NCBI RefSeq assembly: GCF_015732185.1
Contig: NZ_WIQM01000011.1
Coordinates: 1 to 64,000 of the forward strand
Length of the DNA stretch: 64,000 nt
Direction of reading: 5' to 3'
Origin: Pectinatus haikarae
GTDB taxonomy: Bacteria; Bacillota; Negativicutes; Selenomonadales; Selenomonadaceae
The notes below the pieces were generated by a model. The model made no database searches. It was not told the origin of the DNA and worked only from the letters and a program-made list of their open reading frames with translations. A program made the position numbers and the translations under genes. Each line of letters opens with the position of its first letter. The first letter of the stretch is position 1. This document shows, in pieces, positions 123 through 3,973 of this stretch.

Positions 123-137
123 TAATCTGCGATGAAT

Positions 138-178
138 AAAAAGGATGCCTGACAAAAATTTTGTCAGGCATCCTTTTT
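138..178. terminator. bidirectional terminator after the speD-like gene
   Basis: A near-perfect inverted repeat, AAAAAGGATGCCTGAC paired with GTCAGGCATCCTTTTT around an AAAAATTTT centre, with A and T runs on the two sides. It ends the minus-strand dnaG-rpoD-speD-like transcript and can also stop plus-strand transcription. Confidence 0.9.
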
Positions 179-193
179 ATGAAAACAATAAAG

Positions 194-673
194 TTATTTT
201 TTCCGACGAAGTTTTTTTACCAGATTGCGACCAGGCAAAAGATGGATAACTTTTACACCTGTATTTTGAATACGGCGTAAAGGCGCAATTTTGACCTTGA
301 TATGAGGTTTCATATCTGAAACAGTACCAAAATCTCCTCTGCACAAATAAGTCATTTTTGTTTCTTCAGGTTTTATAATTTTACGTAAAGCACGAACAGT
401 TTTTTCAGGTGAATTATTTTCCTTGCAAACGAATAAATCAATTGCAGCGTATTTTAAAGCAGGGTACACATGAATGGTGAGGTGTCCTTCATCCAAAGGA
501 ATGAAGATGACAAAATGGTTCAGATCAAAAGATTTTACTTCAGTTTGTGAAGGAGTAAGACCATTTTTATGCAAAACATTCTTTAGAGAATCTGATAATA
601 AAGAGGCATTGCTTAATTTTTCCGGATTGCAGTTATACATGTCAATAGCGAGCTGCCGTGCTAAAATTTTCAC
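194..673 (-). CDS. SpeD-like protein lacking the pyruvoyl serine (probable pseudoenzyme)
   Basis: This 159-residue protein is homologous to class 1B S-adenosylmethionine decarboxylase proenzyme (SpeD), which makes decarboxylated AdoMet for spermidine synthesis. The hallmark block reads DEGHLTIHVYPALKYAAID. Aligned to the Thermotoga/Bacillus family without gaps, His68 and Cys83 are kept at exactly those positions. Residue 63, the Ser that self-cleaves and becomes the pyruvoyl cofactor, is Gly (codon GGA, checked on the reverse strand), and Ser55 is Val. No other Ser lies nearby, so normal autoprocessing looks impossible. A basic tail of about 40 residues (ending KKLRRKK) extends past the usual length. 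It lies 12 bases after rpoD and before a terminator, so it is probably cotranscribed with dnaG-rpoD. Family membership is clear. Its function is unknown: a regulatory or AdoMet-binding role is inference. Confidence 0.8.
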   Translation of the reverse strand: MKILARQLAIDMYNCNPEKLSNASLLSDSLKNVLHKNGLTPSQTEVKSFDLNHFVIFIPLDEGHLTIHVYPALKYAAIDLFVCKENNSPEKTVRALRKIIKPEETKMTYLCRGDFGTVSDMKPHIKVKIAPLRRIQNTGVKVIHLLPGRNLVKKLRRKK

Positions 674-685
674 GCAAATACTCCT

Positions 686-1813
686 TTATTCGAGGAAATC
701 TTTAAGTTTTTTGCTGCGGCTGGGATGGCGCAGTTTTCGTAGCGCTTTAGCTTCTATCTGACGAATACGCTCACGTGTTACACCAAAACTTTGGCCTACT
801 TCTTCCAAGGTTCTGGCCCGTCCGTCATCCAAACCAAAACGAAGCCGTAATACTTTTTCTTCTCGCGGAGTAAGAGTCTTTAAAACATCTTCAAGCTGTT
901 CTTTTAGAAGAACGAATGAAGCTGCCTCAGCTGGGGCAGGTGCATCATGGTCTTCAATAAAATCGCCAAGATGAGAATCTTCTTCTTCCCCTATAGGTGT
1001 TTCCAGAGAAACAGGTTCCTGAGCAATCTTCATTATTTCCCTGACACGTTCGACAGTTACTTCCATTTCATTGGCAATTTCTTCAGGGGTAGGATCACGC
1101 CCTAAAGATTGCAAGAGCTGCCGTGAAACGCGGATAAGCTTGTTGATTGTTTCCACCATATGAACAGGTATTCGAATTGTACGTGCCTGATCAGCAATGG
1201 CGCGAGTTATAGCTTGTCTTATCCACCAGGTAGCATAGGTGCTGAATTTATATCCTTTGTTGTAATCAAATTTTTCTACGGCTTTTATGAGACCTAGATT
1301 ACCCTCTTGAATTAAATCGAGGAAGAGCATACCACGTCCTACATATCTTTTGGCAATGCTGACGACAAGACGCAAATTTGCCTCTGCCAGCCTTTTTTGA
1401 GCATTTATATCGCCATTTTCCATTTGTTTAGCCAATGCTATTTCTTCATCGGCATTCAGTAGAGGCACACGGCCAATTTCTTTGAGATACATACGGACAG
1501 GGTCATCAATGTTGATGCCCTCAGGTATGCTCAGATCAATATCATCATCAGTCTTACTGTCAGAATCGTTTTGACCCGCGTCATCAGATAACTTCTCACT
1601 TGAATTTTCATCAACAATGTCAATGCCTTTTTTGGTAAATTTTTCATACAGATCATCTATTTCCTCCGGCGAAAGGTCAACGCTTTGCAACGCTTCCATT
1701 ACTTCACCATAAGTAAGAACGCCGCCTTTTTTCTTTCCCTTTGAAAGCAGGACTTTTATGAATTCGGCACTTTGTGAGATCGCAGCAGGTGTCTGTTTAG
1801 TTGTTTGTTGCAT
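686..1813 (-). CDS. rpoD: RNA polymerase primary sigma factor (sigma-70/SigA)
   Basis: Housekeeping sigma factor of about 375 residues that directs RNA polymerase to -35/-10 promoters. Visible in order: a region 1.1-like N terminus, an acidic linker (about 70-95), region 1.2 ([16 protein letters not shown]), region 2 with [17 protein letters not shown] and [10 protein letters not shown], region 3, and the region 4.2 helix-turn-helix [31 protein letters not shown] ribosome site touches the first ATG (1819) but is ideally spaced for the ATG at 1813, so the shorter start is chosen. It lies downstream of dnaG, the classical macromolecular-synthesis arrangement. The many TTGNNN/TATAAT promoters in this window fit its specificity. 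Confidence 0.98.
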
Positions 1814-1867
1814 ACACATGCCTCCTCCCCAATAGTATATAAGAGTACAAACCAGTCTGCATAATGC

Positions 1868-3655
1868 TCAATTAACTCCATCCATTTCTTTAATAATTCG
1901 CTGAATTTCTCTAAGTTCCTGCTGAAACCCATTATCGCCTTTTCGCTCCAGCTCATCAGCTCTTAAACTGTGTTCCAGATAACTTTTTTTCAAATATGAT
2001 AGATGGATAGTTTTCAGATAATCATCCAATAAATCAGTTTCAGCATTATTTTCATTTTCTACGATACAGCGTGATAATTCGGTGTAAGCAGTATCACTTA
2101 AAAGTTCTGAAGCGGTTATGTCACTGACAGGTTCATGATCAGCAGCCTGTCTTACTGTGTAGGATAATATTTCACGGTGATTTTTATCGGTAAATTCATC
2201 CATAGAGATAGAAGCCATAATATAATCCACAATATCTGGTTCACGCCAGATTTTGCTGATTATGTATCTGCCGGCTTTGATAATGGCATCGTTACCAGTT
2301 CCGTCAATAGATTTCATAGATTTTATCACAGGCAAATTTGAGTGCTTACTTTTTCGTTGATGCTTTTGCAGCTCAGATCGCAGATCCGTTTCATCAATTC
2401 CCAGCGTTTGAGCCGTCCGGATTATATAACCATTAGACTCAACTGAATTGTCTACCGAAGCCAGAACGGGAAGGATGAGAGTCACTGCTTTTAATTTGCC
2501 TTCAAGTGCCGTATAATCAATAGTATGCACTATGTGATACAAATGAAAGTCAATAAAATTTAAAGCTTCATCAATAAGCTTGGTAAAAGCAGAGGCGCTG
2601 TGTTTGCGGATAAACTCATCAGGATCTTTTCCGTCGGGCAGGGTGATAACTTTTACGTTGGCACCACTGCCGTGTGCGATTGATAAAGCCCGTATAGTAG
2701 CCAGCTGTCCGGCTGCATCACTGTCATAGCAAAAATAAATATTGGGAGAATACCGCATAAGCTTTTTACATTGTTCAACTGTAAAGGCCGTACCCAATGA
2801 AGCAACTGTGTTGCAAATACCACTGCTTGCCAGAGCGATAGCATCCATATAACCTTCAACAACTATAGAATATTCTTGGTGGCGGATAAACTTTTTTGCC
2901 TCGTTTAGCCCAAATAATAAACGGCGTTTATTGAATAAAGCCGTTTCCGGTGAATTGAGGTATTTGGGCTGATCATTACCGAGGGTGCGGGCACCGAAGC
3001 CCACAGGCTGTCCCTTTTCATCAGCGATGGGAATAATCAAGCGTTCTCGGAACCGATCATAGTGACCTCCTGATTTTTTCTTTACGATTAGACCAACCTG
3101 CAGCAACAATTCTACATTGATACCGCGTTTTATAAATGCAGACGATAATTTGTCCCATCCAGGAGGTGCAAATCCCAAATGGAACTTTTCGATAATCTCC
3201 TTATTGATACCGCGTTTTTGAAGGTAAAGTATACCAGGTTTTCCATAGCCGGTTTTTGTAAGGCAATTATGAAAAAAGTTCTGAGCCATTTCATGAATTT
3301 TGTACAGGCTTTTTATTTCCTGTTCTTTTTTTACTTGTATTGCTGATTTCTTCTTTTGGGGAATAGGAATGTTAAGCCGTTCGGCTTGGAGTCTTATCGC
3401 TTCTCCGTAGGAGATATTTTCTATGAGCGATACAAATTTAAATACATTTCCCCCTTTATGGCAACCGAAGCAATAGAAAAAGCCTTCATCCGGTACTACG
3501 GAAAAGGAAGGTGTGTTTTCTCTATGAAATGGACAACAGCCCCAATAATTATGACCGCGTTTTTTCAATGAAACATAGGAAGATACAACTTTTAAGATAT
3601 CGGATGAAGAATAGACTCTTTCCACGAAATCATTATATGAAGTATTGTCTAACAT
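1868..3655 (-). CDS. dnaG: DNA primase
   Basis: Primase of about 595 residues, which lays RNA primers for DNA replication together with DnaB. The N-terminal CHC2 zinc finger is intact (counted from the upstream GTG: Cys44, His47, Cys65, Cys68, in CCPFHRENTPSFSV and FYCFGCHKGG). The catalytic TOPRIM core follows, with VVEGYMDAIAL and the metal-binding YFCYDSDAAGQ. A C-terminal helicase-interacting region completes the usual length of about 600. The open frame begins at a GTG (3664), but GGGTGA sits 5 bases ahead of the ATG at 3655, which is preferred. It is first in the dnaG-rpoD operon, with a 54-base gap to rpoD. Confidence 0.97.
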   Translation of the reverse strand: MLDNTSYNDFVERVYSSSDILKVVSSYVSLKKRGHNYWGCCPFHRENTPSFSVVPDEGFFYCFGCHKGGNVFKFVSLIENISYGEAIRLQAERLNIPIPQKKKSAIQVKKEQEIKSLYKIHEMAQNFFHNCLTKTGYGKPGILYLQKRGINKEIIEKFHLGFAPPGWDKLSSAFIKRGINVELLLQVGLIVKKKSGGHYDRFRERLIIPIADEKGQPVGFGARTLGNDQPKYLNSPETALFNKRRLLFGLNEAKKFIRHQEYSIVVEGYMDAIALASSGICNTVASLGTAFTVEQCKKLMRYSPNIYFCYDSDAAGQLATIRALSIAHGSGANVKVITLPDGKDPDEFIRKHSASAFTKLIDEALNFIDFHLYHIVHTIDYTALEGKLKAVTLILPVLASVDNSVESNGYIIRTAQTLGIDETDLRSELQKHQRKSKHSNLPVIKSMKSIDGTGNDAIIKAGRYIISKIWREPDIVDYIMASISMDEFTDKNHREILSYTVRQAADHEPVSDITASELLSDTAYTELSRCIVENENNAETDLLDDYLKTIHLSYLKKSYLEHSLRADELERKGDNGFQQELREIQRIIKEMDGVN

Positions 3656-3973
3656 GATATTCACCCGTGTGCTTGAAAATTTAACGAGACAAATAAATAA
3701 GATTCTATGTTAATGTTAAATTTCCTTTAATAAAATTTGACTTAAACACAATAATTTGGAAATTGATGGTTTATAAAGAAAACAAAGCGGAAATAGCTTT
3801 TGTTTATTTTGTGCAGTTCTCCTATAAATCAGCGTATCCATAGTTTTCATTAATTTGTTTGTTATGAATTAAATTCAATAAAAATTCCTGATATCCTTTT
3901 TTTGTTGTAAATTCGTTGTTTTTTTATATCTAATTTGTTAGGATAAGAAATATAGCATTTAGGGGGAATTAAT
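3656..3973. other. divergent intergenic region, dnaG / dipeptidase
   Basis: About 318 AT-rich bases between divergently transcribed genes must hold promoters for both. I could not find a convincing -35/-10 pair with 16-18 base spacing on either strand and saw no strong hairpin or RNA gene. AGGGGG at 3961-3966 is the ribosome site for the TTG start at 3974. Confidence 0.5.

Follow-up and report, generated by a model that had tools for sequence, protein, structure and literature searches.

A SpeD-fold protein of Pectinatus haikarae with glycine in place of the pyruvoyl-forming serine and a conserved basic tail

The window analysed here, a 64,000-nucleotide stretch of Pectinatus haikarae DNA (contig NZ_WIQM01000011.1), contains near its first position an intact reading frame on the reverse strand (194..673, read from 673 to 194), which begins with a GTG codon and encodes a SpeD-fold protein of 159 amino acids. 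Pectinatus belongs to the family Selenomonadaceae of the class Negativicutes, and the nearest named relatives of the protein are those of P. cerevisiiphilus (L001, 80%) and P. brassicae (L002, 68%). A Shine-Dalgarno-like AAAGGAG (681..687, reverse strand), as read in the sequence, overlaps the end of the gene directly upstream (686..1819, reverse strand), which from its translated sequence we take to be rpoD; the frame upstream of the latter (1868..3664, reverse strand) is, by its translation, presumably dnaG. The rpoD stop (686) is separated from the start of the speD-like gene by 12 nt, and the spacing is 12-13 nt across four Pectinatus loci, the order of the genes being the same at L001, L002 and L025. 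Just downstream of the gene lies a perfect 22-nt inverted repeat with a single base between its arms and flanking A/T runs (136..180), a probable bidirectional terminator, although a terminator pattern scan did not list it. As this repeat comes after it, the Pectinatus gene looks like the last one in a dnaG-rpoD unit.

The first-pass annotation had called this context ribosomal, while the neighbourhood is that of dnaG and rpoD, and it had tied a role of the protein to this operon. A regulator that controls or binds sigma-70 or the primase of the macromolecular synthesis operon would agree with the short distance to rpoD, the terminator-like repeat and the conserved order in the four Pectinatus loci. 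However, among the loci read, the gene stands directly behind rpoD in these four only. Elsewhere, the co-directional upstream neighbour is lgt (23 loci of the window gene's family) or glmS (3 loci), and a FabK-like gene is divergent to the tailed speD at 18 loci from 15 families; the neighbours were surveyed with a fixed set of sequence motifs, and the lgt and FabK-like names were checked on one example each. We consider a regulator of this kind very improbable, and take the placement behind rpoD to mean that this one gene was relocated in the Pectinatus lineage, without a functional link.

The protein matches PF02675 with 78.7 bits (cut-off 25) over profile positions 2-107 of 107, that is, over the whole domain, and misses the TIGR03330 equivalog cut-off of 75.65 with 74.5 bits; TIGR03330 matches all 37 members of our wider profile set A2 at E 0.01 or better. 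Residues 1-118 align without gaps to the AdoMet decarboxylase of Thermotoga maritima (1tlu; phmmer, E 4e-15). An AlphaFold2 model built from three Pectinatus sequences reached a pLDDT of 52, with the tail below 50, and a fold search with this poor model placed the T. maritima enzyme at the top (probability 1.00, TM 0.37, E 0.006). No relatives were found in the viral contigs searched.

In the alignment to 1tlu, the position of the serine that forms the pyruvoyl group in canonical SpeD is occupied by glycine (Gly63, codon 485..487, reverse strand). Glycine is unable to yield a pyruvoyl group. Furthermore, Val55 stands at Ser55, Tyr70 at Trp70 and Asp11 at Glu11, Ser55 and Trp70 being functional residues of the class-1b enzyme; His68 and Cys83 are retained. 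The gap-free alignment, the Gly63 and Val55 replacements and the two kept residues, all noted in the first-pass annotation, were seen again in the comparison with a protein of known structure; the replacement of Trp70 by Tyr is an additional change, absent from that annotation. In comparison with class-1b SpeD (T. maritima 1tlu and 1vr7; PF02675, TIGR03330), the window protein has the same core, His68 and Cys83, and homology over residues 1-118, but lacks Ser63, Ser55 and Trp70 and carries in addition a conserved, basic tail some 40 residues long. The pseudoenzyme status of the window protein is well supported. The T. maritima S63A mutant (PDB 1tmi), titled 'non-processing', folds nonetheless.

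Relatives were collected as 133 profile matches, from which same-genome repeats were removed, leaving 107 rows in addition to T. maritima. Three of the 107 were canonical; the other 104 were used for counts at position 63, and 87 non-redundant rows (<88% identity) for residue sets. Glycine occupies position 63 in 70 of the 104 rows and serine in 25; the others have Cys (3 rows), Thr (2), Ala (2), His (1) or Phe (1). Glycine is fixed in f1, the family of the window protein (47/47 rows), and in f2 (12/12). The first-pass annotation had held that serine-bearing relatives would make the glycine a lone mutation. Such relatives do occur, but they belong to different Negativicutes families with the same tail, and serine is the older state by the outgroup; a lone mutation or an assembly error is ruled out by the fixation of Gly63 in f1.

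The complete canonical set of S55, E62, S63, H68 and C83 is found in none of the 87 rows, but once Thr55 is allowed, 13 of them are canonical at the remaining four positions. These 13 belong to families with otherwise near-canonical cores and, by their residues, may still be enzymes. Trp70 is absent from all 87 rows, Glu11 is replaced with Asp in 86, and Glu72 is often lost. The first-pass annotation had suggested AdoMet sensing or binding to nucleic acid, and either may be the role of the protein; because Trp70 is never kept and Glu72 so often lost, however, AdoMet itself is doubtful as the ligand of the tailed protein. Of the 54 Gly63 rows, 52 retain His68 and 49 retain Cys83, whereas Cys83 is replaced with Phe in all 12 rows of families f32-f35, whatever the residue at position 63.

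These counts bear on the possibility that the family consists of some other active decarboxylase, its Ser63 members being pyruvoyl enzymes and its Gly63 members using another catalytic residue. The 13 near-canonical rows and the retention of His68 and Cys83 beside Gly63 are in its favour, as are the arginine- or ornithine-decarboxylating SpeD homologues described in passages of PMC10407285. On the other hand, glycine gives no pyruvoyl, position 63 is also Ala, Cys, Thr, Phe or His, and both the Cys83-to-Phe replacement in f32-f35 and the loss of Trp70 are complete. Such an activity seems unlikely for the family as it stands; if the 13 rows are active pyruvoyl enzymes, the common function of the family might have been enzymatic and been lost later. 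In the genomes of L122, L123 and L124 (families f26-f28), a canonical class-1b SpeD and a tailed Ser63 paralogue occur together, and G308 and G314 also have class-1a SpeD copies.

A profile of 22 members of f1 (A1) matches 357 of 380 Negativicutes genomes and 97 of 102 genera, including 228 of the 234 genomes with completeness of at least 90% and contamination of at most 5%. Among the matches listed, the best E-values are below 1e-24, and since the three canonical class-1b copies score only 1e-16 to 1e-18, these counts refer to the tailed paralogue. The wider profile A2 gave one weak partial match in the 23 genomes with no A1 match. With two of these 23 at 99-100% completeness, some of the losses are genuine, and the absence of the gene from six of the 234 good genomes indicates that it is not indispensable. 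In a draw of genomes from the phylum, 267 of 398 matched; the out-of-class matches listed end near profile position 113-128, roughly where the SpeD domain stops, except for three that reach 140-142, and these only by reading through stop codons, whereas all 14 in-class rows listed extend to profile position 145 or beyond.

A maximum-likelihood tree was built from 91 rows (<88% identity) with columns 63 and 83 left out. The branch that parts the tailed rows from an outgroup of T. maritima and the three canonical copies has full SH-aLRT support, and this outgroup makes Ser63 the older state. This quick tree requires 13 changes at position 63, and 8 between Ser and not-Ser, with 40 of its 88 inner branches weak. 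Holding the Gly63 rows together was not rejected by AU tests (p 0.077; two subsets gave 0.238 and 0.376), and as a single Gly63 group is thus compatible with the data, no claim of repeated independent loss of Ser63 is made.

Selection was estimated from 12 disjoint close pairs, hand-picked among 60 listed (dN <0.2, all Gly63), in which dN/dS was 0.009-0.181 with a median of 0.06; for the full set of 95 pairs left by the dS filter, which takes in between-family pairs with saturated sites, the median was 0.34. Pectinatus pairs are at or near synonymous saturation (window protein versus L001: dS 1.56, dN 0.12). The ten most conserved columns by entropy in the 87 rows are C15, R112, P123, D11, D79, H64, T108, G113, H68 and D120, while positions 63 and 55 rank 43rd and 107th of 152. 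A decaying gene or chance survivor might be suspected from the fast evolution of the core between families, the drift of several catalytic residues and the few good genomes that have lost the gene. Yet the frames are intact, presence is near-universal, the tail is nearly unchanged, and the close Gly63 pairs show neither dN/dS near 1 nor, among close strains, frequent frameshifts. Decay is accordingly an extremely improbable account, and the view of the first-pass annotation that an intact frame here means a maintained pseudoenzyme holds for f1 as a whole.

The C-terminal basic extension comprises residues 112-159 (197..340, reverse strand) and carries the motifs RGDFGTVSDMKP and PLRRIQNTGVKV, conserved across the 37 class members aligned; an extension of the form RGDFGxxxDMKP...PLRRxxNTGAKV is common to the class and ranks with the best-conserved regions of the protein. 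Its first two residues, Arg112-Gly113, are common to canonical SpeD, while the remainder is not. The last 48 residues of the window protein have a net charge of +12 and a pI of 9.9. The basic tail reported in the first-pass annotation proved to be a property of the family: over the 87 rows, tail charge ranges from +6 to +18 with a median of +10, with a core median of -2. Three canonical class-1b copies from Negativicutes have a charge of +2 to +3 and a pI of 5.1-5.5. In 62 of the 87 rows, the last part of the tail has a helical hydrophobic moment above that of shuffled sequences (p<0.05); for the window protein's own tail, the moment of 0.52 is not above shuffles (p 0.36).

A tail profile searched in 41 genomes found no other protein at E <0.04, apart from a partial copy in one genome (G091:C57:6254-6346), where a partial second tail motif, within a frame of 58 codons, follows the tail of the gene at a distance of about 90 nt. 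In the 37 members, Pfam gave the tail no matches except weak ones in one or two of them, and a search of the tail against the PDB gave one repeat protein at E 0.011, which we regard as chance. Members L113, L118 and L120 (f35) have a longer basic tail with repeated TGxKLK-like units, suggestive of an extended amphipathic helix.

The first-pass annotation had pointed to a canonical speD elsewhere in the genome as something to look for, and one is indeed present, although of class 1a. The second PF02675 match of P. haikarae is a 270-residue class-1a SpeD (TIGR03331, 406.5 bits, cut-off 255.8), clustered with genes for an Orn/Lys/Arg-type decarboxylase, SpeE and agmatinase; P. haikarae thus has no need of the window gene, which is not adjacent to speE, for AdoMet decarboxylation. 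In five of the 72 genomes searched (G172, G182, G184, G250 and G251), a SpeE match is absent and the tailed protein is the sole PF02675 match. As these five keep it, it can serve there neither in the SpeD-SpeE route nor purely as a prozyme, and spermidine synthesis was rejected as the role of a gene that persists without SpeE and canonical SpeD. A SpeE homologue (PF01564, 184-194 bits) was also observed at L136, L138, L141 and L142 (genomes G146, G246, G202 and G164), all without a canonical SpeD; it adjoins decarboxylase, carboxynorspermidine synthase-like and nspC-like genes, named on L138. A spermidine synthase with no source of decarboxylated AdoMet is odd, and another donor may be used.

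The idea of a prozyme-like partner, a dead copy that heterodimerises with the active SpeD of the genome and activates it, has its precedent in trypanosomatids, where, as described in PMC5201418 and PMC6221367, a catalytically dead AdoMetDC paralogue under selection activates its active partner; P. haikarae has the active-looking class-1a SpeD that such a partnership would require. But the trypanosomatid prozyme is of eukaryotic class 2 and works with its active partner, whereas the Negativicutes protein is kept where a canonical SpeD was not found and in five genomes without SpeE; moreover, the active copy in P. haikarae is of class 1a, not 1b, and the conserved basic tail is left unaccounted for. 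We give this explanation little credence.

Other SpeD paralogues in new roles are known. SpeDA and SpeDC, as described in passages of PMC10407285, are SpeD-derived pyruvoyl-dependent arginine and ornithine decarboxylases, often with or without a true speD alongside; they resemble the window protein as paralogues that took a new role, but they keep the self-cleaving serine and are enzymes, whereas the window protein has Gly63. The SpeD-SpeDC fusions of Victivallis vadensis and Desulfobacter, in the same source, have a degraded C-terminal SpeD domain, which, like our protein, is bacterial and lacks some residues of the active site; it undergoes no self-cleavage, and the same is predicted for the window protein. 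This domain, however, is one half of a protein joined to an active domain, while the Negativicutes protein is free-standing, class-wide and has a tail of its own. The available passages of PMC10407285 contain no mention of Negativicutes, Selenomonas or glycine, and no free-standing, class-wide bacterial SpeD pseudoenzyme with such a tail was found described in the open-access PMC literature.

At the level of sequence, SpeD descent, loss of the catalytic serine, purifying selection, near-universal presence and a unique cationic extension are established for the family. The protein is probably a Negativicutes-specific class-1b SpeD paralogue in which pyruvoyl formation was lost in most lineages, and which was kept for a non-decarboxylating role. 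The SpeD core would still fold, probably as the usual dimer, and the part of the old pocket that is kept (Asp11, His64, His68, Asp79 and mostly Cys83) could bind a small ligand, for which a polyamine or a compound resembling an amino acid is plausible. The tail, ending in a likely amphipathic basic helix, would dock the protein on an anionic surface, either the inner face of the membrane or nucleic acid. Most likely, then, the tailed SpeD is a scaffold or sensor that responds to a ligand and docks on such a surface, where the nature of the ligand and of the surface is what we infer from the kept residues and the charge of the tail.

Diamine-modified peptidoglycan is reported for Negativicutes such as Selenomonas and Veillonella. 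Passages of PMC10628300 describe the peptidoglycan of the class as carrying cadaverine or putrescine and as being bound by OmpM. A more specific, and improbable, version would make the tailed protein a membrane-docked diamine-binding component of the apparatus by which peptidoglycan acquires its cadaverine or putrescine; the former active site would hold the diamine and the cationic tail would dock where lipid intermediates are made, and as the active site would only hold the diamine, catalysis would be free to be lost. Its sole evidence is that both the protein and the diamine-peptidoglycan trait are characteristic of Negativicutes.

AdoMet decarboxylase models match a nearly class-wide protein although most of its members cannot form the cofactor, and metabolic models that count the tailed protein as SpeD predict a spermidine route that is possibly absent. 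As a SpeD pseudoenzyme that is free-standing, occurs class-wide and has a conserved tail of its own, the protein would be a clear example of how an enzyme fold turns into a binding protein, since Ser63 relatives that share the tail survive for direct comparison.
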